Part shown: one piece after another, positions 5,676 to 53,388 of the stretch | Numbering within the stretch: position 1 is the stretch's first letter | How the letters are laid out: each line of letters opens with the position of its first letter | Assembly: GCA_032622095.1 (NCBI GenBank) | Contig: CP136066.1 | Coordinates: 60,728,609-60,792,608, forward strand | Direction: 5' to 3' | Length of the DNA: 64,000 bases | DNA from: Siphonodentalium dalli | Taxonomy: Eukaryota; Mollusca; Scaphopoda; Gadilida; Siphonodentaliidae | Translations under genes and position numbers: made by a program | Notes under the pieces: model-generated | Databases searched by the model: none | Told to the model about the DNA's origin: nothing | The model's input: only the letters and a program-made list of their open reading frames with translations

Positions 5676-5934
5676 ATTGTTTTCACCATAAAAACGTTAA
5701 TACTACCATAATATCAGTCATATGTGCATGTTTGTATTTCGGGTATGACCCTGGCAACAGTTACCACTCATATAAGTAAGAATTATATGGTATTTTTTTC
5801 AGCCATTGTTTTCACCATAAAAACGTTAATACTACCATAATATCAGTCATATGTGCATGTTTGTATTTCGGGTATGACCCTGGCAACAGTTACCACTCAT
5901 ATAAGTAAGAATTATATGGTATTTTTTTCAGCCA
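5676..5934. repeat. Near-perfect 129-bp tandem duplication
   Basis: The block beginning attgttttcaccataaaaa at 5676 is repeated from 5805 with no differences that I can see over 129 bp, and contains one copy of the fold-back arm sub-repeat. The other sub-repeats in the arm are clearly diverged, so this duplication is much younger than the element. Confidence 0.85.
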
Positions 5935-6943
5935 TCTCAACACTAACAACTATTCTAATTGCTTTCAACACAAAAGTGCTATTAGGTGTAGTTTAGTTTG
6001 TTAATGCTACCATAATATCAGTCATATGTGCTTTTTTAGATTGTGTGTGCGTCCCTAGCAACCGCCACCCCTTGTAAGTAAGTAATATGGCAATTTGTCA
6101 GTCAGGTCAAAACTGACAACAAATATGTTCACCATAAACATGCTACACGACGTAGTTTAGTTTGTTAGAACACGTATACTATCAGTCACATGCATTAATC
6201 CGATGCCAGGTAGTTGCCTAGCAACCGTTGCTAAGAAGAGCCTGTTGCAAATGACGCCACATGTGAAAATGAGCAGTAGCGTATGAGGAACATATGTGCC
6301 AAGTTTCATGCTTTTATCGCCCTTTTCACAGTTGGTGTGTTTTCTACAACAAGCACTTGGACTAGCGGAAGGGCAAAAATGTGACGAGAGCCAGTTTAGG
6401 GGGTAGGGTTATGTTTTTACAAGTATTGACCACTTATCATAGGTATAGTTGCTAATCCCGCATATTATGTTGGAGGAGTGATATCTGTGCAGTTTTTAAA
6501 ACAAATTGCTTGCGCCTACGTAATGAATAGCCCGAGAAATTTGACATCGAATAATACAGATTGTCTGAAAAAATCGTCATTTTTTGGGGTCATTATGTTA
6601 TTTTATATCCATATCTGCGGAATTCATTCAAATCCCCCCGTTGAATTTGTATGTCTGGTTCGAGAATTGTGTATTGAACAATATTGAGTACATTTGGTAT
6701 ATGTTTCGGCTGAAAAATTGTTATAACATCCCATTATTCCTATGATTGTGAAAAATATATATGTTTTAATTTTTTTATGAAAAAAATTGGTTAACTCCGA
6801 AAGCTCAACTCCGATTTTAGGGGACTTTTCGTGACGTATCCGCGATGTTATGGCCTAAATAATATAAAAAAATCAGCTTTCCGGGATTTATTTCCTTACT
6901 TTTCCCCATTCACGCCTAATGTGCCTGGACTAATATGTTGCTT

Positions 6944-8336: not shown

Positions 8337-9606
8337 ATGGCCGACGATGTAGACCAAGAAAATGGTTTGATCGAAACTGCGGTGCATAATTTGGCACCGG
8401 GGACAATCATTGTTGCCGGATCAGATATCCAGACAGAGTCTGATAATGTCGAGGAAGATATTCTGCAACAAGCTTTGGACAATGCTTCTGAAAATTTCGT
8501 CGAAACATCAGATTATACCGAGACAGTCGATGCACAGGAGATGGTTGACTGTGTTGCAGCGGATTCCAATAACCAGACGGCTGGTCAAATAGTTAGTTGT
8601 CTACCACCAGGAGTCAGATTGGTAGCCAATCCAGATGGAACTCACAGTCTGCAGGATGAACTGGGGAATGATGCTTTTGAAATAGTTTCTGCTTTGAATA
8701 ATTCGGAGAATTTGGAGTTGTCGGGAGAGAACATTTCTGAAGTTATATCTGCAGAAGACATCAATGATGGCAATATAATCAATGTTGAAAATGTTGAGGA
8801 AGATGTAAACAGTGAGCCGATTCAAATACAATCCACAGAGAAGACATTGCCAAATGTTCAGAGTAATATTATTCCTGTCGCTGTTACTAGCACCAATGAT
8901 CCGGAAACTGTTTTCACAGAGGCCTCTGGACCAGTCAATTCTAAGAACCAGCAGTCTAATCAGCCTGGAATTAATATCACTCTGCTGCCATCTAATGATA
9001 GTGGCGCACCTTTAGGATCAAGTCAGAATCCAATAAGAATAATCCAACAAGGAAATCAGTACACTCCAGTACAACAGCTGACGTCGGATCAGTTGCAGCA
9101 AATAATGCAGATTGTTCGGCAAAAACAGGTTGTGCAAAATACACAGAATACATCGGGTGGAACAAGTGTATTATTCAATCCAGAAACAAACACCAGAATT
9201 GTTTATCGAGTTATATATCCATCTGAACTTCACAAGAATGCGCCTAGAGTTATTAAGGTTGGTGCTCCTCCAGCCACACAAGTGGATGAAAAGGGGATTG
9301 TAAACCAAGGTCTACCAAAGAGACAATATAAGAAACGTAACAGAGAGGAGGAGGAAAGGATTGAAGGTCCTGAAATGTCAAAAGAGGAGAGGATAGAGAG
9401 AAAGAAAGCAAAAACGAAAACAAGATGTGGGAGAGTTTCAAAACCACCAAAGCATATGACCAAAGACTACAAGCACATTCATGTGTTGGATTGGGATGAA
9501 GAGCCTTATGACGATTCTGATGGTGGATATTCTGATTTCAAGTGCAGTGAAGAAGAGAGAGAAGCACTGAAAAGGAATGAAGAAGCGAGATCTGAAGATG
9601 GGTTTG
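8337..9606 (+). CDS. znf839: ZNF839-like gene, coding exon 1
   Basis: Codes residues 1-423 plus the first base of codon 424. The donor is TTTG|GTAATT at 9607; reading through instead gives three extra residues and a TAG at 9615, so the open frame overshoots the exon by 11 bases. Content: acidic Q/N-rich region, a glutamine-rich helix (QQLTSDQLQQIMQIV), a VYRVIYPSEL segment and the basic GRVSKPPK block. Overlapping frames on both strands are shadows. Confidence 0.88.
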
Positions 9607-15600: not shown

Positions 15601-18600
15601 ATATTTTCCGGGAGATTGGTCACTCGTTTCCTTGAGATTGGGGTCACCGTCCGGGAGATTTTGTAAAGTTTAAAATCTAGAACGCATGTTTCTTTTGATT
15701 TTTATCATACCATTTCAAGAGACCACGAGTCCTTCAACTTTGAATCATATCGTCGGCGTTTTGCCTGTCTTTCCGCAGAATCAGACATTTAAAAAATATA
15801 ATGTATTGTCGCCAATTTACTGAGACATATATAAATGACCATATATGAAAACAATCTGGCATAGTTAATATTAGTTTTATAACGTGAGGTTCATTCATCC
15901 TTTGTTTGTTAAAACATGTGGGTGACAAACCATTTATTGCCAGACTAATTACCCGCGGCACATTCAAATGGCAGCTACTCCAAGCTATCGTGTTATCATT
16001 GCGTAACAGCAGTGTCTGCACCATTGGTCATTAAAATAATATACATTTTATCACTGGGGGACGTTCCTTTTCTGGATTTTTCGTATGTCGCTTCACTAAG
16101 TCTTAAAATAAAAACTGAATGCCATATTGGACACCATCTTGGATTCTGATACTCTTCTAATAGTGAATATGGTTGGAAATTCGCACTTTACACTTATTAT
16201 GTGTGTTCTACACTAAATAAAAGGAAATACTACGCACTATTCTATCATTCTGGGATCCAATCCCCTGCGATGGCTATACTTAGCATTTTATGCAGACATT
16301 GGGGGAGGGTTAAGTGTTCGCCTATTATTGCAATATTTATAGGATCAGGAAAATAAAGTTAATACATGTACCTCCAGGTAGAAAATACTCCAGTCTTTCC
16401 AAACATACATGAAAATGACAAGATAAGTTCAATCCAGCGTGCTAGTTTTGTACAGAGTTGACAAGCGACAGTTTCTCTGAATTGTCATGATTTATTGACG
16501 CAGAACGTTACATTCTCCACGATGACGTCGTGAAATCTCAAACAAACCAGAAAAAATAAGAACGTTCCGATCAAGTATCACCATGTACCACATAATAACA
16601 AATAGAACGTTCTGTTTTTTGTGATGTGATTAACTGTTAACCAATGGTGTATACATGTAGCTGGTCACCCGCTGAAAACAGGCTAATATTTCGGTAGGGT
16701 ACCTTCACAAATAGTCTCACCATACATACTAGTAGCTGCCACCATTTCCAGTAAGGCTAAGAATCATTTTCATAAATGATATGTATTTACCTTCCAGAAA
16801 AAGTTGGTTTCAACTTGTTCTACCGAGGGTAGGGGTATCTCGAAAACTAAGGCCCTTTTTGGATTTGGCCGCTCCTCTACACAGTGAAGTACATTATTAA
16901 GAACAGGATTTATCTAAGAAATATATTCCCTGCATTATTTTTTCTACTTTACAAGGTTCCCTGTCAAACTTCAAAAAGTTCCCAGGTTTTGTTCTTGTGG
17001 AATATGATCTCTACAGGCGTTAGCCAGAGTAGAGATTCATGGCATGATCTAAGCCATTATAGGGTAAATAAGTAGGGGTCGCCCGGAAATTATTATTTAA
17101 AAAAAAAACATTCATAAGACCATACATGTAATTGTATGGTACATGTACCGGTATATGGAATATACTAGTATATTCACTCTGAATATATGCCCCTTGCTGC
17201 ACAAATGATATAACATGACACATTGAGCATGTAGGTATTGGGAGGGATAATGAAGCCCTGGCAGTATTTTTAATAAAAAACTATTGCAACATTACAATGA
17301 TTACATTAACCGCCAGTGATTAGTGATGCCGAATTGGTCAAGTTTGCATGTTTCTGTTGGTTATGGTACCCAGAAGGGATGGCTGCAGGGATTTTTTGTT
17401 ATGTTTCTGTTTGTTAGGGTACCCAGAAGGGATGGATGCAGGTATTTTTTTTTATGTTTCTGTTTGTTAGGGTACCCAGAAGGGTTGGCTGCAGGTATTT
17501 TTTTTATGTTTCTGTTTGTTAGGGTACCCAGAAGGGATGGATGCAGGTATTTTTTTTATGTTTCTGTTTGTTAGGGTACCCAGAAGGGATGGATGCAGGT
17601 ATTTTTTCGATGTTCCTGTTCACAATGGTTAGGGTACCCAGCAGGGATGTATGCAGGATTTTGGGACACCTGTTTTCTGACCATGATATGGCGAGTGAAT
17701 TTCTCAAAGACTGTAGGCCTGAGCTGGGGTGGGTATTGGAAGGGGTGTCTCCCTCAGATTTATGGGGGGTTATCCCCATAGAAAATTTGAATGCCATGCA
17801 TTGAGAGAGAATCTAAGGCTCTCTCAGCCTCTCTGAAGACTCACTATTTTGGAGGTGAATTTAAACCAGTTTATCAATACATGTACCAGTATTTAAACTT
17901 CCTTTTGAATTAAATCCAATAAATGTATATATTGTAATGGGGTTGATACTATCCATAGATTCATGGGGTATGATGGTCATAGGTATGTAAATATTGTACT
18001 GTCACTGTCTCTGCTTACCCGCCTTAGTGTATCCCTTGTGTCATTGGTCAATTCGATCACTCCTCATAAATACGGAAGACAACCAAATGGGTTTGCTGTT
18101 GGGGGGGGGGGGGGGACTATATCAAACAAAATAAGCAATAAAACCATAAGAGTATTTTTTGGGACTGAACAAATTGACTTGAAAAAAAAAATATTCTCAA
18201 ATTATTTTTTTTTGCCATTTCACGCCATACAATGTACCGGTACTAATTCCTATAAAATGAAAATAATTTTAGGAGCGAGATATCCATGGTGGCTGGGGGG
18301 AGATATCCAGAGGGAGATGATGTGGTACACTGGTACATGCAATGTATGATTAAATTATTATAGATTACACTGCACTTACAAAACCCAGAAACTGGAAATG
18401 TTCGACTTGTGGAAAAGGTTACGTAGGAAGAGGAGGACTTGCTCGACATTACCGTTTGGTTCCAAGTCATGGATCTATTGCTGATGTCCCAGATTATGAG
18501 AATGGACAACCAGAGAAAGGTACTAGTAATTAATCTTCGAATAATATCATTTGAGAAACACGTAAAACTTATGGTATGTGCCTACTAGTATTTTAAAGGC

Positions 18601-21600: not shown

Positions 21601-24600
21601 TAAATTATACAGACTTGGCTGTTCCAATATTATTTTCTTAACCACCACTTATCCAGGTGAAATCATACCCTATTGGATATTGGGGGGTATATTTATATTA
21701 CTAGATGAATGGGTCTCATACCGGTAGATGGGGATTCACATTTGTTCCAATAGGGGCAGAGATAAGAGATTTGACTCTCCTCTATCCTGCTTGGTACTGG
21801 TATAATAATATTGATTTCTAGGCAGCCTGGTGGGGGCAATGTTTGAGGCAATGGGGAAGGAGTGTAGAGGAGGTGGAGTTTTGACCCCCTACTTTGATCA
21901 AAATTTAAACAGTTGAAAATTTCATGCCTGGTATAACATTAGTTGTAGATTAGATGTTCACATCAAACATAGGTTATAATTGTTCTCATAGTTTGGTTTG
22001 ATTTTCCAACATGTATGTTTTTAAACCAACAGTCCATGTGTTCCTACTTCAGGTTAAACTGTTGGACCAAATTTGCCACAAATTTTAACTTTATGGGGTT
22101 AGTAATTTTCAAACGTTTGAGAGCTTGAAGTACTGGTACCAGTTGTAAAATTCAACCTAAGAGGGATGTGCAAAAAGATTTTTGTGAACTTAGTACTGTG
22201 GTATGGTTGTCTTCTTTAAAAGGTAAGAGGTTGGAGATTTGTCAGTGGTGTGAATTTCAAGTTGAAGAGCCCTGCTCATCTGAGAACCTCCAGCTATGTC
22301 CATGTTTAGAACTACTTGTCTTAAGTGATTGATTGATTGATTGTTTATTTTGTACAATATTTACAAACATAATGCTGACAGTGAATTATTCAGGAATAAA
22401 CATGATTATATTGTACAGTGATATTGTCACATACTGACTCTTGTAGTCTTCCGAGGTCCAGTCTTCTCAGTCTTAACAGTCTGGTGAGCGACCCACAGTC
22501 ATTGACTGTCTTGTTTCTATCCGAGCAGATATCAGCCATAGGTTGTCGGATCTAAATGAAATATCATATGGATGTTCAGCAATATCAGGACATTCAATGG
22601 AGTTTTCAACCGTTTTGTTCAGGATTTTCCATTCCAGGTTATTGATCTTTGTTTATCTGAAAATGTTAATTATTTTTCCGTTTGCCTTCAGGAGTATCTC
22701 AGCCATAGGTTATACCAGTAGGTATGCCCACACCAGGCGGTATGCCACATGGGGGGTATGCTATGCACCCGGTGACAGCCCAGCTCTTGGTATTGTTTTG
22801 TGTTGCGTACTGCCATACAAGGTGTATTATGCTAATAATTGTCATGTCCAATCCGATCAGATGGTCCCCATACCATCAAGATACAACAACAACATTTATT
22901 AAAAATGTGCTTTACTTATCAGAATCGATTTATTGCAACAAAATAATGCTATCCACTGTCAACTATGATATAAAATTTCCCAAAACTTGTCATTTATCAA
23001 CATTTTATTCAATAAAATATGGCTGTTTTTTATCAGTAAAGTATCACAATATTTTAACGTATTACCACTTGATTTTAGAGTTATCCATCTTCATCTGCAC
23101 TTTTGTCCGAGACCCTCCTTTTGACCACGTGTTTCTGGGCCACATATTATTACACATCTCGAGAAATAACAAACTTCAAAAATCTATATCTGATCACTCT
23201 GAGCATTGATGGTGGGTTCCGAGATTCGAATAAATTTTTTTTACCCCCGAAGCCAAAGAAATAGTAATTTAGGAGTGTCTGATCGGATTGAGTACCTTTA
23301 ATATGTTAAGATAGAAACAATAAATTAAGCAAACAATATACTTCAAAGCCATTTGCGATATACATGTATATCTACATACTAGTACATGTACATGTATATG
23401 TATATGGTTACAGTATGGGGTAATCGTACAAGCAAAAGATACGCTAATTAAACCATCTTTAACCGTTTTGTTTCCAGGGGTTTTAACTGATGTGAATGGT
23501 GTTCAGAATACGATGGAGAATAACATATCTGAAGACAGCACGACAACAGATTCGTTACCTCCGATCGCTCCTGTTGACCAGCCGTCTCCTGTCGAACCAC
23601 CGCCTGTCAGGAGGCCTGGAAGGCCAAGAGTGAAAAAGCGTGGTAGAATCGCTTATTATGGCCCAGAACGGAAGAGGCACAAAATTTCCAAACTACAAGA
23701 AGTAAATACATGTACCCCATTGATTTAAGGCCAAATAAAATAATAATTTCGTGTTCTCAGGCACCTCCCTCGTCACTGAAATATTATTTTAAAAAGCCTC
23801 GTCAAACATTAATTTCAACATTTGGAGTATGTTTTCCAGATTTCGAGAAAAAAAGTAAAAATAAATAGCCTACTCTCCCTCATCGTAAAATTGCCTGAGA
23901 ATACAGCTATTTTATTTTAATGGCCCAATACATGCATCCATTTCTTTTTGATCCCTTCCATGACTGGAGCTTCCTGAAATTTTGCGAAAACCATGTTCCA
24001 ATGCATACGCATTCTCTTACCGGTATGTATATGCGATATTCCCTATGGGAGACTCGCATACATAACAGAATGCAATGGCATAGGATCTTTAATGCTGCAT
24101 CAGCGCAGCTCCCGTCATGAAAAGGGATAACTGTGTAAAATGAATTCCCCCCCATTCAGTTCCACTAGTCTACATTGTTTATATTGAATTGTAATTCAAG
24201 AAGTATATTTGTCGCTGAAACACGCATTCTGTTCGGCTGAGGGCAGCTAACTTTAGTTTTCTATTCACCAAGCATCGGTCGCTGATCGGAAGACACATTT
24301 TGAATGGAGCAAGGTGTCATTGGCAACGTGCGTAAAGTGGTACCAGGAGTCTTGTAATCCAGTTAAATGTAACATTGTTTTCTATTAATACGGTTAACAG
24401 GAAGTTGTTCTCACGCTGTTGCGAGTATCCCGATGGAGTGCACCCAGAGATTTTGCATAATCGAAGTGACCAATGGATGCACATCACCATCTTCAACATC
24501 TAGGAACTTAAATCTGAGTCTAGGTCTCCCATAGAAGATGAGGAAATGCAGAATGAGGTCATCAGAGGATGAATTTGGTGATGCTAGCCCACTCTGCGGG

Positions 24601-27600
24601 GGAAGCATCACTAAATTAACCCTCTGGGGACCTCATTCTGCAAATGTCTGGCACCATATTCTCTGGCCTGTTCATCCTTTATCTTAGAAGATGAAGATGA
24701 TTACTTGATGGTTGCCTATTTGCCGAGATTGTCTTTGATAACGTCTTTCTCTTCAGAAAATCAGTACATATGAAAATGACGACTTGATGGTTGCTGTTTT
24801 GCCAAGATTGTGTTTGATAACGTCTTTCTCTTCAGATAATCAGTACATATGAAAATGACGACTTGATGGTTGCCTATTTTGCCAAGATTGTGTTTGATAA
24901 CGTCTTTCTCTTCAGATAATCAGTACATATGAAAATGACGACTTGATGGCTGCTGTTTTGCCAAGGTTTTCTAAGATAATGTCTCTCTCTTCAGATAATC
25001 AGTACATATGAAGATGATGATTTAATGGTTGCTGTTTTGCCTAGATTGTCTGAGATAATGTCACTCTGGGAATTCCTTCTTATAAAAAGTGAAAGCGGCG
25101 ATCAACCAAAACCACAAGTTAACAAAATTTTCAATGAATTCAAAGCGCTCCATGAAAACGTGCAGAAGTTGTGTCAGGAATATCTTACGCCTGTCAGCAA
25201 AAACAGAGAAAATGAGCAAAGCTTATTTGAGGTGAGTGATCCTGACTACAGAGACATATAATCTAGTGATGAATCAATATGGGGAAATCACCTTTGGCCT
25301 ATACCCAATTGTTAAAATATAGTATATCTAGACATAATCTAGTACAAAAGGTCAAGCACAATGACACTTATTATAAGCAAAATTCATTGAAACTGATTGT
25401 CTCCTGATCTAACAGCAAAGTATAGTCACAGTTACCGATTATAAAGTGAAATTCCACATACGATATTGGATATTGAACTTCATCATACATGTAATTGCCG
25501 GTATGTCAAGTGTCCAAGGACAGTTTATTTGCACATTGTGCCATGTTCTACTTTCACTTACTGCAGAGTTAGTGCTTACAATGTTTATTTTGTCGTGGTT
25601 AATATATCAAAACGCCCTCATTCCAGATTACTCCTCAATATTACTAAGGCTTAAACAAATTGTACCTGTGTTTCCAGTAACGGACCAAAAATATTTTTGG
25701 TAGGTAGGTAGGGAATTAAATTTTAATTTTTAATTTTTTTTAACCCCAAATAAAAAAATTGGAGATTATTTTGCTGGGAATTATGACTGAAAACAGCTAT
25801 TATGACTTTCTGAATTATTTTATTGTATTAAATGAATGAATATCTAATAACAATTATATTCATGCATATATGAATACAATTATATATACATTATGTAGTA
25901 TACATGTATGTAAATACATATACAAGTAATATAGTATTTTTGCCTTGGAGCTATTTACTAGTCTGTAATTAAGGATGAGTTTATATACAGATGTACCAGT
26001 CACACCACTCAAACCCAAATAACATCCCACCACCCCCACTGTTTCTATGAATTATGGTGGTTTAGCTTGGTAAGCCCACGCTGATCAAAGGTGTTTATCG
26101 AAACAGTTAAGGGGCGACAGACCGACATCCATGTGCAAGGGCAGAAGATATACATTGTAATGTAAGAACAGGACAGTCGGATTATACCCAAATTAAATTC
26201 AAAAGGCAGTGTTTGTATATTATATATAAAGCCAAATTAATCACCTACATTGTACGAAAACCGATTGAAACCAAATTTGGTACGTGAGTTTCTCAGCCCA
26301 AAATACAGATCGAGTTCGAATATGGGATTGATACAATTTTTTTCAATTCAGTTATGGCCCTATTATGAAAACAAAACAAAACAAAAATTAATAGATTGAA
26401 CTCCTTGCTCGATTTAAAAAAAAATTATTTAAAGATTTTTTAAAAACCTTTTGTAATAAAAAAATAAATTTTAATTTATATAACTTTTTTTTTATTGACA
26501 CTTGCATTTATTTTCATTTAGATATCCAGTTCTTACACCTGCTATCTTTATAAAGGTCTGAGTTATCCCAACAATACTGTGTTCACTGGACTTCTGTAAA
26601 ATTCCTAAAATGCACATGTTATAAGACAGGCTTTCCGCTAGGTATAAATTACCGGGGCCGTTTGGCAATTTGGGGGAAAACTTCAAAACAGTATAGTCAG
26701 TAACACATCTCCGAGATATCGTTGGCCGAATGATCTGCAAGCACTCAAAATGTCTTATTTCTTGAGGTATTATTTACTAGCTTAATGTGGGTTGTTAGTA
26801 TGCCAATTTAAAACACACAAAAAGAAATTTTCGAGATTAAACATATGTCAAAATGCGTTGAATATACGAGTTCACTTTCGATTTCCGGTTTGTATAACCA
26901 CGTGACCCTACGGATATAGAGTTTTCCAACTTCGATGGAACAGGCCCAAGGCAGTACGTCCCATCCATGGACATTTTCGTGTATGCCTATCTGGCTGCCA
27001 ATCATGCTTTCCACGTGGCCTGATTACTAATTATAGCCAAAATGGCAAAAGAGAAATGACAACAATCAGTGATGGAGCAATGGAGTTATTTCCCATTCAA
27101 CACGAGTAACACCGATGGGCCAGTACGTGTGACTATTTACAACTTTTTCCAAAATAAAATACAAGAGGTGTGCACTCGAGTGCTAGCATACCCCCACCGT
27201 GGCAAATTCAACCCGCATTATCCGTAAACCCAACAAAAAAGATTTTTTACTAATAATATCGATATGGTGTCACAAGAAGCTTGTACAGAAAAAATTATTC
27301 AAATTGGTTCATATTTGTTAAAGTTATTAAGTCGGACAGAATTTTCTAAGTCAAAATAAGTCGAAAATGAAGTGTAATATTACGAAAAACAGTCTGAGCC
27401 AATCCCTAGCCGCATCATGTAGAGAGGGTATTGTGAGAAGCATGTATACCAAAAATTATTGAAATCGGTTCATATTTGTTAAAGTTATGAAGTCAGACAG
27501 AATTTTCTAAGTCAAAATAAGTCGAAAATGAGGCGTAACTTTAGAAAAAAAAGTCGGACCGAACCGCAATTAGCATCATGCGGAGAGGCAGTCCTACTAG

Positions 27601-30600: not shown

Positions 30601-32248
30601 TCCCTTATAGATTAAAGATGATGAACTGGCACGATGTCTTGGACTAGAACATGGGACATACCTCCCATTAAATGACGTTCAGACGGAACATCTCCCGGAA
30701 AGTTACAAGACATTCTGTTCATCTCGAAATCCACCTCTGCTCCCTCCTCCTACAACTAATGTCGTCACCATTCCCGTCATATCTACCAATGACAAAACGA
30801 AAAATCGCAACATTGTGTTTCCAGCTAATATCACATCATCATTAAAATTCATTCAGCCTTCTCCACAGATTTCTACCATGTCTAAAATGACTCCTACCTC
30901 TCAAGTGTTCACTACGACCTCCACTAGTCCGAAAATAATTACAGTATCGCCAAGTAAACTTTATTCCGGCAGCAGCAGACAGAACTTACAAGCTCCTAGA
31001 ACGTTTGGTGACTCGGTTATAACAACTGGTAATATTAGTAGTTCGTCCATGTCAACTAACACTATCGTGCCAGTTATATATAGTAACAATACTGGTGCTA
31101 TATATAGTAACGATCCTAGTGCTATGAATCAAATTGTTCCGATAAGTGTGCCAAGTAGTAATGTTCCAGTTCCTATTAATACTGTTGTTCAGACTGTTCC
31201 GGTGTCTATCATAATGAAGGATAACTATCGTGCCATTCCTGCCGTCAGTTCTAGTTCTTCATCATTGGTTATGTCATCCGTTCCATCAACAGTTCCATAC
31301 AAACCTGTTGTAACGACTGGGATATTTTCTCATAAATCTAGTGCTGAACAAACGTCACTTCTAAAGACTTCTTGTGCTAACTCTGAGCAAACTTCACTTT
31401 TAAAGAATTCTAGTGCTAACACAGAGCAAATGTCACTTCTGAAAGGTTCTAGTCAAGGTTCTACGAAAGTAGTTCTTCCACAAGGGGAGGCAACTAATAG
31501 TTTTGTTGACATCAGTTCTCTCATTCCGACTCCGAAAGCAGCTATCACGTCATCAGCGAACGCAGTCAATGGAATCAGCGTCCTTAAAGGAATGACAAGT
31601 TTGTCTGCAAGGAGTTCTGCAAGTCCAGATCTGAATGTTTCTCCTTCTAAATTGGTGAACTTTGCGACGAACAGTTCGACTATTTTGGTGAATTCCGTTG
31701 GCGATCCAATATCTGCGTCTCCGGAGAAGTACATCTCGTTATTGAGTGGTAGCACCGTGCTCATGCCAGCAGTGGAGAACCAGTCTAAATCTGTGGTAGA
31801 TGGTTCTGGTGTTGAGGCATTTATCGTCGACCAATCAGGATTGAATTCCACAGAGACAAGCTTTGTTTCGAATGTGTTGTCTCAAGACGGAGATAATAAT
31901 GAAGCGAACGTTGATGCAGATTCGTCGGAAATGGTCCCGGTGATTGAAATGGATTGCAATAATTCAAACATAATCATTACCGACGACGGGAGTTTAGAAG
32001 ATGGTTCACAACTCATCGACGTTGACAATCTTGCCGGAGACCAGCTTGATGCTCCTATTCTCACAACCCCCGAGCAAATAATATCGGCGGATTCACAGAT
32101 ATATCAAACACCCGATGGAGTTATTATTATTCAGAATCCGGATGGTTCTACTTTCCAGCTGCAGGGAGCACAGGATGATCTCATTCAGACGATAAATGAC
32201 TTATTATCGAGTCAGGTTACTCAAGTTGAGGAAGAAGCCACCTCCTGA
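8337..32248 (+). CDS. znf839: ZNF839-like zinc-finger/AT-hook nuclear protein (five coding exons)
   Basis: Spliced CDS joins 8337-9606, 18364-18519, 23478-23701, 24995-25231 and 30611-32248: 3525 bases, 1174 residues. Every junction has GT/AG and keeps frame. Order of parts: acidic, Q/N-rich N-terminus; basic nuclear-localisation-like region about residues 320-362; CGRVSKPPK at 364-372; one atypical C2H2 finger (C436, C439, H452, H459; spacing C-x2-C-x12-H-x6-H); Pro-rich linker; AT-hook RRPGRPRVKKRGR near 520-532; helical segment in exon 4; long Ser/Thr/Asn-rich C-terminus ending in a PDG-containing acidic stretch. The finger plus the GRVSKPPK motif and the CINP neighbour point to ZNF839, whose molecular function is poorly known; DNA binding is inferred. 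Start choice: ATG with A at -3 and G at +4, preceded by an in-frame TAA at 8331. It is longer than human ZNF839. Confidence 0.85.
9822..10350. mobile_element. MITE family G, copy 1
   Basis: Starts TTAAAGGCGGCGTTTG and ends CAACGCCGCC...CTTTAA, so it has terminal inverted repeats. Its interior (caccataaacag, aaacgctctttat, cttttgtttacataacaa) is shared with 18592-19105. It splits the left arm of fold-back 2 from its counterpart, so it inserted later. Confidence 0.75.
12100..14300. other. Central region of fold-back 2
   Basis: No recognisable gene, transposase or strong repeat. Scattered short open frames are not protein-like and have no splice context. Confidence 0.5.
17341..17665. repeat. 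52-bp minisatellite, about six units
   Basis: GGGTACCCAGAAGGGATGG recurs near 17364, 17417, 17470, 17522, 17574 and 17632 (spacing 52-58 bp), each followed by gcaggtattttttt and atgtttctgtttgtta. Because 52 is not a multiple of three, apparent repetitive proteins in several frames are artefacts. Confidence 0.9.
18102..18116 (+). repeat. G homopolymer run (about 15 nt)
   Basis: An uninterrupted G tract between ttgctgtt and actat in intron 1 of the ZNF839-like gene, about 250 bp before exon 2. Confidence 0.9.
18364..18519 (+). CDS. znf839: ZNF839-like gene, coding exon 2 (C2H2 finger)
   Basis: 156 bases between TTATAG and G|GTACTAG; phase 1 in and out. It encodes the single zinc finger, with C436, C439, H452 and H459 and the linker GKGYVGRGGLAR, followed by an acidic tail. 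It is too short for simple open-frame scans, but both splice sites and phase agree with the flanking exons. Confidence 0.9.
18592..19105. mobile_element. MITE family G, copy 2
   Basis: Starts TTAAAGGCACG and ends CGTACCTTTAA; shares the ordered internal words of the copy at 9822-10350. About 514 bp, non-coding. Confidence 0.75.
19116..19213. mobile_element. MITE family D (mariner-like), left-half fragment
   Basis: Begins CAGTAATGCCCTAAATAATC and follows the family D left arm to the gccattcatctgaaagctct region, then diverges. The right arm is missing. Confidence 0.75.
19366..20343. mobile_element. Non-autonomous hAT element with 8-bp target duplication
   Basis: Ends are CAGGGTTTCCGCTA and TAGCGGAAACCCTG. 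Both sides carry the direct repeat TTTTTAGC (19358-19365 and 20344-20351), the 8-bp duplication expected for hAT. Length 978 bp; no intact transposase seen. It landed inside an AGCTCACCTGAG-type dispersed repeat, which resumes at 20352. Confidence 0.85.
20352..20720. repeat. Dispersed mollusc-type repeat (AGCTCACCTGAG family)
   Basis: Begins with the ctcacctgagaagaagtctcc block and continues with cagatttgttcaaatgaggt and accataactctttccc words that recur at 21280-21490, 50880-51745, 51746-52180 and 52620-53060. Non-coding. Confidence 0.65.
20830..21600. mobile_element. MITE family C, double-palindrome copy with an internal insertion
   Basis: First palindrome 20848-20939 (gcagaatgaggtcc to ggacctaattctgc), then the family spacer to about 21060. 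Foreign dispersed-repeat sequence follows to about 21490, then a second palindrome (about 21494-21585) ending gcaaaggtcagacacac. Confidence 0.65.
22847..23300. mobile_element. MITE family K, copy 1
   Basis: Terminal inverted repeats CAATCCGATCAGA and TCTGATCGGATTGAGTACC; interior shared with copies at 43546, 46433, 53284 and 53777 (ttatcaacattttattcaa, cttgattttagagttatcc, gaagccaaagaaatagtaa). About 454 bp. The open frames over it are not genes. Confidence 0.8.
23478..23701 (+). CDS. znf839: ZNF839-like gene, coding exon 3 (AT-hook)
   Basis: 224 bases from TTTCCAG| to GAA|GTAAAT; enters in phase 1, leaves in phase 0. Encodes residues 476-550: a Pro-rich linker, then the AT-hook-like RRPGRPRVKKRGR and a second basic cluster ERKRHK. 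AT-hooks bind the minor groove of AT-rich DNA; that role is inferred here. Confidence 0.88.
23953..24126. mobile_element. Family P2 TTAA element, decayed copy
   Basis: Left end cccttccatgactggagctt and right end cagctcccgtcatgaaaagg match the P2 termini seen intact at 62591-62824. Internal palindrome words (gcattctctt, gggagactcgcata) are present but degenerate. Confidence 0.6.
24548..24641. mobile_element. MITE family C palindrome
   Basis: Arms gcagaatgaggtc and gacctcattctgc around a tggtgatgctagccc/ggaagcatcactaaatt centre. The family spacer lies on its left (24425-24547), so this is the right half of an element. Confidence 0.7.
24680..24994 (+). repeat. Tandem array of decoy 5' ends of exon 4
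   Basis: Units of 79-80 bp, each containing a pyrimidine tract with TTCAG and the first about 55 bases of exon 4 (ataatcagtacatatgaaaa). Acceptor-like AG ends fall at 24756, 24835, 24915 and 24994; a worn first copy starts near 24680. Only 24994 leads to an open exon: from 24836 the frame stops after 27 codons, and from 24916 after 31. Copies are nearly identical to each other. Confidence 0.85.
24995..25231 (+). CDS. znf839: ZNF839-like gene, coding exon 4
   Basis: 237 bases, phase 0 at both ends, from CTCTTCAG| to GAG|GTGAGT. Encodes residues 551-629, a helical segment rich in Leu and Glu with no familiar motif (LMVAVLPRLSEIMSLWEFLL). The acceptor is the last of four equivalent tandem copies; earlier ones would insert a premature stop. 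Confidence 0.88.
26628..28350. mobile_element. hAT-ended composite element
   Basis: Ends CAGGCTTTCCGCTAGG and TAGCGGAAACCCTG match the family of the element at 19366-20343. Flanks share TATAAGA on both sides, a probable target duplication one base short of eight. The interior contains a GGGGGTATA-type dispersed repeat. Confidence 0.6.
27165..27765. repeat. Dispersed GGGGGTATA-type repeat with internal sub-repeats
   Basis: Three diverged sub-blocks (near 27290, 27430, 27600) share 'cggttcatatttgttaaagtta' and 'cagaattttctaagtcaaaa' words, followed by a gacggacggac stretch and the end tccagtatacccccca...gtgggggtataa. The same ending occurs at 48370-48415. Confidence 0.65.
29605..29983. mobile_element. 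PIF/Harbinger-like MITE with TTA target duplication
   Basis: Terminal inverted repeats GGCGACACCAATTTTTAAGT and the complement at the right end (AAAAATTGGTGTTGCC). Flanks are TTA on both sides. A paralogous copy of the host repeat at 26340-26400 shows the uninterrupted site cagTTAtggccc, supporting the boundaries. Non-coding; superfamily inferred from TSD and GGC ends. Confidence 0.75.
30298..30369. mobile_element. 72-bp hairpin at a TTAA site
   Basis: TTAA followed by CATGTTCACTGCCGACG and ending GTCGGCAGTGAATGTG, then a mutated TTAA. Ends resemble the 845-bp element at 42056-42900 (CATGTTGAGTGCC). Confidence 0.6.
30611..32248 (+). CDS. znf839: ZNF839-like gene, terminal coding exon 5
   Basis: Starts after TTATAG| in phase 0 and ends at TGA 32246-32248; 545 residues (630-1174). 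It is a long low-complexity Ser/Thr/Asn/Val-rich region with a threefold repeat of about 17 residues (SAEQTSLLK, NSEQTSLLK, NTEQMSLLK near 31345-31445), then an acidic end with PDGVIIIQNPDG. Such regions suggest a disordered activation-type segment; this is inference. The antisense open frame at 31453-31851 is a composition shadow. Confidence 0.9.
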   Translation: MKDDELARCLGLEHGTYLPLNDVQTEHLPESYKTFCSSRNPPLLPPPTTNVVTIPVISTNDKTKNRNIVFPANITSSLKFIQPSPQISTMSKMTPTSQVFTTTSTSPKIITVSPSKLYSGSSRQNLQAPRTFGDSVITTGNISSSSMSTNTIVPVIYSNNTGAIYSNDPSAMNQIVPISVPSSNVPVPINTVVQTVPVSIIMKDNYRAIPAVSSSSSSLVMSSVPSTVPYKPVVTTGIFSHKSSAEQTSLLKTSCANSEQTSLLKNSSANTEQMSLLKGSSQGSTKVVLPQGEATNSFVDISSLIPTPKAAITSSANAVNGISVLKGMTSLSARSSASPDLNVSPSKLVNFATNSSTILVNSVGDPISASPEKYISLLSGSTVLMPAVENQSKSVVDGSGVEAFIVDQSGLNSTETSFVSNVLSQDGDNNEANVDADSSEMVPVIEMDCNNSNIIITDDGSLEDGSQLIDVDNLAGDQLDAPILTTPEQIISADSQIYQTPDGVIIIQNPDGSTFQLQGAQDDLIQTINDLLSSQVTQVEEEATS

Positions 32249-36141: not shown

Positions 36142-36156
36142 TATATTATCTGTTAA

Positions 36157-37026
36157 CCCTTTCTATACTAAAGTATCATTGACGAGTAGTTATCCCATAG
36201 GAAATGTTCAGAACATAAGTTTAACCATTACTATACTAAAGCATCATTTATGAGTAGTTATCCATAGGAAATGTTCACATAATAAGTTTAACCCTTTCTA
36301 TACTTAATAAGTATCACTGATGAGTAGTTATCCCATAGGAAATGTTCAGATAATAAGTTTAACCCTTTCTATGCTAAATCATCATTGGTGAGTATGGTAG
36401 TTATCCCATATAAAATGTTCAGATAATAAGCTTAACCCTTTCTATACTAAAGCATCATTGGTGAGTAGTTATCCCATAGGAAATGTTCAGATAATAAGTT
36501 TAACCCTTTCTATACTTAATAACTATCACTGATGAGTAGTTATCCCATAGGAAATGTTCAGATAATAAGTTTAACCCTTTCTATGCTAAATCATCACTGG
36601 TGAGTAGTTATCCCATAGAAAATGTTCAGATAATAAGCTTAACCATTTCTATACTAAAGCATCATTGGTGAGTAGTTATCCCATAGGAAATGTTCAGATA
36701 ATAAGTTTAACCCTTTCTATACTAAAGCATCATTGATGAGTAGTTATCCTATAGGAAATGTTCAGATAATAAGTTTAACCCTTTCTGTACGAAAGCATCA
36801 TTTATGAGTAGTTATCCCATATGTTCAGATAATAAGTTCAGTCTTTTCTATACCAAAGGCAAAGTCTAAAGCATCAGTTTGTTGACTTATTATCTAAACA
36901 TTTCCCACCAATAAATACGTAACCTTCTGTACGTTTATTTACCTGTACATCCCTGCAAATGAATAATAGACCATTCTGATGGACACTTTTTAATGGACTG
37001 GATGAATTCATTTAGTATGGAAAGGG
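36157..37026. mobile_element. Family P3 TTAA element with amplified internal minisatellite
   Basis: TTAA then CCCTTTCTATACTAAAG at the left; right end CATTTAGTATGGAAAGGGG. The left end sequence is repeated about 11 times (unit near 64 bp: ctatactaaagcatcattga, gtagttatcccataggaaat, gttcagataataagttt) before a unique tail (36880-37026). The copy at 62081-62528 carries only one unit. Not a CRISPR: there are no distinct spacers and this is a eukaryotic genome. Confidence 0.85.

Positions 37027-53333: not shown

Positions 53334-53388
<55 letters not shown>

Follow-up and report, generated by a model that had tools for sequence, protein, structure and literature searches.

A minisatellite of exon-start copies sets ordinary-strength splice acceptors before exon 4 of a DUF4764 gene in Siphonodentalium dalli

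In the scaphopod Siphonodentalium dalli, a DUF4764 gene within a 64,000-nucleotide stretch of contig CP136066.1 (the window) carries a tandem array where intron 3 meets exon 4. By sequence score, the array offers five acceptors of ordinary strength; one is productive, and four lead to early stops. We read it as a tolerated minisatellite that probably makes splicing leaky, an accident rather than a designed switch; judged from the sequence, this reading has a probability of about 0.6.

The host gene and the array before exon 4

The DUF4764 profile (PF15961) has 44 matches in the 2.23-Gb assembly (nine contigs). The three with E values of ≤7.4e-6 are all inside the window: an upstream coding match at 9378 to 9566 (contig positions 60737986 to 60738174; profile positions 113 to 173; the coordinates give the extent of the match only), the C2H2 finger of exon 2 (18364 to 18519; profile positions 187 to 219), and exon 4 (24995 to 25231; E = 3.8e-16). 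The remaining 41 have E values of ≥0.1 and align with the profile's finger region. The host gene appears to be present once; a search of the assembly, whose N stretches could conceal a copy, found no second instance of the gene or of the array, and the array used as a query matched only itself. The name ZNF839-like comes from an earlier, sequence-only reading; DUF4764 is linked to ZNF839.

All of these features are on the plus strand. Exon 3 (23478 to 23701) has the donor gaa/GTAAAT in phase 0, exon 4 spans 237 nt (79 codons) with phase 0 at both ends, and exon 5, which is open with exon 4, extends from 30611 through the stop at 32248. Joined, exons 3, 4, and 5 stay open until a stop after ...EEEATS. 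The introns flanking exon 4 measure 1,293 nt (intron 3) and 5,379 nt. Exon 5 also contains a 39-bp coding tandem repeat, with 13 residues per unit, at 31344 to 31453.

TRF places the array at 24691 to 25062, with a period of 79, 4.7 copies, 89% matches, and a score of 553; it is thus a minisatellite, with head-to-tail units of tens of bases, and it crosses an intron-exon border, as in intron gain by tandem duplication. Four units upstream of the true exon start at 24995 are copies of that start: unit 1 (24688 to 24756, 69 nt, truncated at its 5' end), unit 2 (24757 to 24835, 79 nt), unit 3 (24836 to 24915, 80 nt), and unit 4 (24916 to 24994, 79 nt), all on the plus strand and ending in acceptors 24756, 24835, 24915, and 24994, respectively. 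The earlier, sequence-only reading had proposed units of about 79 to 80 bp before exon 4, which TRF and the unit alignment confirm. It named these four AGs correctly and overlooked a fifth acceptor, 24687 (ctttatcttag/AAG), which heads the truncated unit 1. It was also right that the units carry the exon start, but the exonic share that it put at about 55 bases is 73 nt (24916 to 24988 in unit 4, 86% similar to exon 4), and unit 1 is short of about 11 exonic bases.

Between units 2 and 3 there are 2/79 base differences and one indel, whereas unit 4 differs from the exon at 10/74 positions and unit 1 at 13/64, suggesting that the first duplication is old and some of the amplification recent. 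The array is known from a single assembly, and its copy number could in principle have been inflated by an assembly or read artefact; this is exceedingly improbable, as the units are separated by 2 to 15 substitutions and an indel, unlike the stutter of one unit, and the entire array is shorter than 400 nt.

Positions 24453 to 24671 on the plus strand belong to a dispersed repeat family with an internal palindrome; this copy ends about 16 nt before acceptor 24687. Most of the 40 scored copies of this family end near 24670, and a few reach 24675 to 24679. The family was rejected as a source of the array units, since the three copies compared stop short of the array. Elsewhere in the window are a 68-bp minisatellite of about 10 copies (36153 to 36858), two copies of a 129-bp unit with 100% matches (5676 to 5935; a recent duplication or an assembly effect), and 53 consecutive G residues (53335 to 53387).

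Sequence strength and predicted consequences of the five acceptors

Acceptor scoring matrices were built from sites located by homology in the same genome, first from 35 sites at EGF_CA loci and then from 78 non-redundant sites, obtained by adding 57 more EGF_CA exons to the 35 and removing near-identical sites. These matrices disregard branch points and exonic enhancers, and their training exons represent a single module family, EGF_CA. With the 78-site matrix, 24687 scores 8.32, the acceptors at 24756, 24835, and 24915 score 7.06 each, and 24994 scores 7.40, against an authentic median of 7.81; in leave-one-out percentiles among the 78 authentic sites, these values correspond to the 59th, 41st (all three), and 44th. 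The order is similar with the other matrices: the four upstream sites score 7.27, 6.33, 6.33, and 6.33 with the 35-site matrix (24994, 6.93; authentic median, 7.14) and 9.0, 6.88, 6.88, and 6.88 with a 92-site matrix that includes redundant sites (24994, 7.26).

The host gene's own acceptors score 5.04 (exon 2), 6.81 (exon 3), and 11.33 (exon 5) with the 78-site matrix, so that the decoys equal or exceed two of the three compared; the exon 3 acceptor, 23477, scores 6.77 with the 35-site matrix. Among the 83 AGs of intron 3 and exon 4, the top six by the 78-site matrix are 24687, its neighbour 24690, 24756, 24835, 24915, and 24994. The best AG of intron 3 outside the array (24159) reaches 6.17 with that matrix, and all AGs outside the array in intron 3 and exon 4 fall below 5.5 with the 35-site matrix. 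Window-wide, decoy-level scores are not rare: 105 of 3,229 plus-strand AGs attain them with the 92-site matrix.

The AG-free stretch before the site is 80 nt at 24687 and 27 nt at 24756, 24835, and 24915, versus 17 nt at 24994, a length of ≤17 nt being seen in 3/35 control acceptors. Branch-point-like TNAY motifs are found 15 and 18 nt before 24756, 24835, and 24915 and 13 nt before 24687, distances that fall inside the 10 to 53 nt separating the nearest TNAY motif from the AG in 34/35 controls. As in splice-site-bearing variable-number tandem repeats (VNTRs), each unit carries a splice-site-like sequence of ordinary strength; here these are acceptors, whereas the known cases bear donors.

Translation from the upstream acceptors meets a stop after 6 (24687), 31 (24756), 27 (24835), and 31 (24915) codons, located 523, 379, 312, and 220 nt, respectively, before the exon 4/5 junction. 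Only 24994 yields an open exon 4 among the array acceptors. Stops placed so far upstream of a junction are expected to trigger exon-junction-dependent nonsense-mediated decay (NMD), and the array has the layout of NMD-coupled unproductive splicing, in which the stop lies well upstream of the last junction. The sequence and the same-genome matrices thus support the earlier description of decoy acceptors with complete-looking splice signals of their own and premature stops, and its counts of 27 codons for 24835 and 31 for 24915 were right. Its statement that only the last acceptor gives a full protein holds for the simple use of one array acceptor; six in-frame detours exist through one extra intron of at least 40 nt, whose donors agree with the consensus at 5/9 positions or fewer.

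Every GT in units 1 to 4 matches at most 5/9 donor consensus positions. The units were rejected as cassette exons and as mutually exclusive exons because adequate donors are absent, and, judged from the DNA, the array with such donors does not look like an intron gain in which the duplicate's donor gives a new spliced intron. Nor is it a case of tandem alternative splice sites (TASS), defined by successive sites at most 30 nt apart (PMC8055015); the array sites are 69 to 80 nt apart.

By score, acceptor 24994 has no clear sequence advantage over the decoys; what favours it is that it lies near the exon 4 donor and, perhaps, the sequence of the exon. In one alternative, exon definition from the strong exon 4 donor would make 24994 the sole site used and leave the upstream acceptors inert. 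Such a silent array is unlikely, although it deserves more weight than any other alternative to leakage. It draws on the donor itself (gag/GTGAGT, 8/9 consensus positions), on the shortest exon being the one from 24994 (237 nt, versus 316 to 544 nt from the upstream acceptors), on the length of both flanking introns, and on the dispersed-repeat copy that ends just before acceptor 24687. The upstream acceptors, however, score about as high as 24994 or higher, have TNAY motifs at 13 to 18 nt, inside the range of nearly all controls, and compete with a site that has the shortest AG-free stretch of the five.

A second minisatellite with splice signals (17348 to 17662; 52-bp units; one genome match, itself) is found farther upstream in the host gene, past the upstream coding match and before exon 2. 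Its acceptors score 8.4 to 9.4 in four units and 4.2 in the fifth, with 4.8 for the acceptor of exon 2 on the same matrix. Every unit is stop-free for 24 nt in every phase, and four units contain a cag/GTATTT donor (7/9), with only 28 to 29 nt from donor to next acceptor.

Border-crossing duplications at other exons and the question of selection

Control acceptors were scored for an upstream copy of themselves, defined as at least 24/32 bases alike within 450 nt. The first set derives from 113 EGF_CA matches, of which 30 were taken as loci, giving 37 acceptors and 35 after redundancy was removed. For the second set, 60 EGF_CA matches were taken and 57 used, 3 having no AG at the match start; 23 matches in single open frames of 932 to 3,334 residues were left out. 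Among 150 LDL-A matches, 60 of the first 73 were taken, with 52 acceptors located and 8 not; the 13 skipped comprised 9 in what looks like a duplicated region, 3 in open frames of >500 residues, and 1 other. The 144 tests represent 143 places, as one tested locus (L072) is the identical genomic place to a first-set site.

An upstream copy was present at 1/35 and 0/57 acceptors of the EGF_CA sets and at 1/52 of the LDL-A set, that is, at 2/143 places (95% interval, 0.2 to 5.0%), many of which lie in clusters of related exons; with near-identical EGF sites collapsed and LDL-A left uncollapsed, the count is 2/130 (78 + 52). In the EGF_CA case (L011, reverse-complement position 1501), a 49-bp unit present twice contains the acceptor plus the first 12 bases of the exon. 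With 9.08, the upstream copy outscores the real acceptor (6.93), and splicing to it runs into a stop. In the LDL-A case (L124, reverse-complement position 483), a more diverged 54-nt duplication lies across the acceptor, with 27/32 bases alike, and reading from the upstream copy meets two stops. At a further locus (L030), 22/32 bases are repeated, which is below the threshold.

Duplications across the border are thus seen again at other exons, where they occur as a single extra copy; what sets the array apart is its copy number and not its kind. This recurrence makes an accidental origin of the array easy. The genome is dense in such tandem repeats around genes; repeats with a period of ≥20 cover 8,809 of 93,672 bases in 30 EGF_CA loci (L011 to L040).

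We do not rely on a depletion of tandem duplications at acceptors. They are fewer there than at random window positions (2/144 versus 102/1,500; Fisher P = 0.006, and the same with 2/143), and 101/1,200 random intronic anchors of the second EGF set have one, but only 11/57 loci contribute to that figure. The same-locus comparison is weak: a duplication is present at 1/109 acceptors, compared with 7/109 anchors at -100, 7/109 at -140 (two-sided P = 0.065), and 6/109 at -180. The LDL-A loci alone have no deficit at acceptors (1/52 versus 0, 1, and 0 of 52).

Substitutions bear on whether the copies are constrained. Of the differences between unit 4 and the exon, 6 are synonymous and 4 are replacements, against an expectation of 21% synonymous under free change (P = 0.008; P = 0.015 to 0.026 with transitions weighted 2- to 4-fold). 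For unit 2 and the exon, the 5 synonymous and 7 replacement differences are not a significant excess (P = 0.08, up to 0.19). The unit 4 pattern, with few changes behind it, is as expected if the exon is under constraint and the decoy is not. Within units 1 to 4, 2/20 positions vary in the acceptor 20-mer and 14/49 in the unit body; this lower variability of the acceptor is not significant (P = 0.12), which leaves room for decoys that are kept by selection.

Selection could have retained the decoys as unproductive-splicing control, setting or tuning protein dosage through NMD. The four upstream choices do end in stops 220 to 523 nt before the next junction, and all four acceptors are still at ordinary-site scores. 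We consider such control improbable, given that 79- and 80-nt units break the frame as a matter of expectation, that the two other exons described above show the same outcome, and that unit 4 differs from the exon like a free copy. The RNA fold is not unusual either: 97/100 shuffles fold at least as well as the native sequence (z = +1.72), and Rfam has no match in 24300 to 25400. Of the two options that the sequence-only reading had offered, dosage setting and neutral amplification, the latter fits better, with smaller duplications of this kind at 2/143 controls and a unit 4 that differs from the exon like a free copy. A copy-number rheostat, in which every added acceptor unit diverts more transcripts to a dead end and alleles that differ in unit number have graded protein levels, is a long shot, scarcely more probable than selected control; if it were true, border-crossing duplications would repeatedly supply such rheostats in a repeat-rich genome.

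Proposed origin, probable leaky splicing, and relation to known systems

We propose that a tandem duplication across the intron 3/exon 4 border of the DUF4764 gene was later amplified to four upstream units. The junction sequence suggests breakpoints in the exon after ...gataatgtcactct and in the intron just before its last ...cttcag. Exon 4 reads gataatgtcactctggg and the unit 4 junction reads gataatgtctctctcttcag; on the simplest reading, exon sequence after ...ctct became fused to the intron's final cttcag. The exon stretch coding Glu-Ile-Met-Ser-Leu, together with cttcag, would form a branch-point-like, pyrimidine-rich stretch, so that each copy has a complete-looking acceptor. Because the exon and the unit are similar over 73 nt, the decoy pyrimidine tract looks exon derived. 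The decoy tracts thus appear to be mostly former coding sequence, and the first duplication appears to have created its own splice signals.

Some of the splicing would go to the four upstream sites. The length of both flanking introns should favour exon definition and hence the last acceptor, 24994, while a share of transcripts may leak to the upstream acceptors and be destroyed or truncated, a loss that is probably tolerated rather than a selected control. Exon 4 has gaagatgatgat at the position where units 2 to 4 carry gaaaatgacgac, a difference that we presume might weaken the decoys as exons, on an enhancer argument. In human data, when 3' sites of equal strength are separated by 20 nt or more, the upstream one is strongly preferred if introns are short, and this preference is significantly reduced if they are long (PMC9225289). 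Given flanking introns of 1,293 and 5,379 nt, partial leakage would be the likeliest outcome.

The nearest known cases appear to be donor-carrying repeat units, in ABCA7 and IFI6, and a border-crossing duplication in potato. The IFI6 (6-16) minisatellite reportedly gives multiple splice donors, going by the title of Turri's 1995 paper. Like the array, it would offer several splice sites; the array supplies acceptors with an exon start, where that title speaks of donors. The ABCA7 intronic VNTR has a 25-bp unit with a donor, and its length variation and isoforms were measured (PMC5954066). There, too, the repeat unit holds a splice site, and the retention of one unit gives a frameshift and premature stop; unlike that VNTR, the array has units bearing acceptors and is read from DNA.

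In the potato RdRp gene, a tandem duplication across an intron-exon border led to intron gain with RNA-read support (PMC4974935). Both duplications reach from the last part of an intron into the exon that follows, copying the branch site, pyrimidine tract, 3' site, and exon start. The potato case, as described there, involves one copy, an activated donor, and a new intron spliced in RNA, in contrast to the several copies of the array, which have no good donor and are seen in DNA. Human internal tandem repeats that similarly lie on exon-intron borders change the structure of genes and may give rise to new introns (PMC2812944); those cases concern segmentally duplicated genes with transcript support, while ours comes from one assembly. 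Among the matches listed in our literature search (titles and abstract openings, with subscription journals thinly covered), we found no multi-copy acceptor-bearing minisatellite.

Near-identical acceptors about 79 nt apart before a single exon, with splice signals that are nearly equal, offer a natural experiment in which upstream-first choice competes with exon definition. The array suggests that one border-crossing duplication can build new acceptors partly from coding sequence. The two smaller cases among 143 controls suggest that such duplications generate decoy sites repeatedly in genomes rich in tandem repeats.
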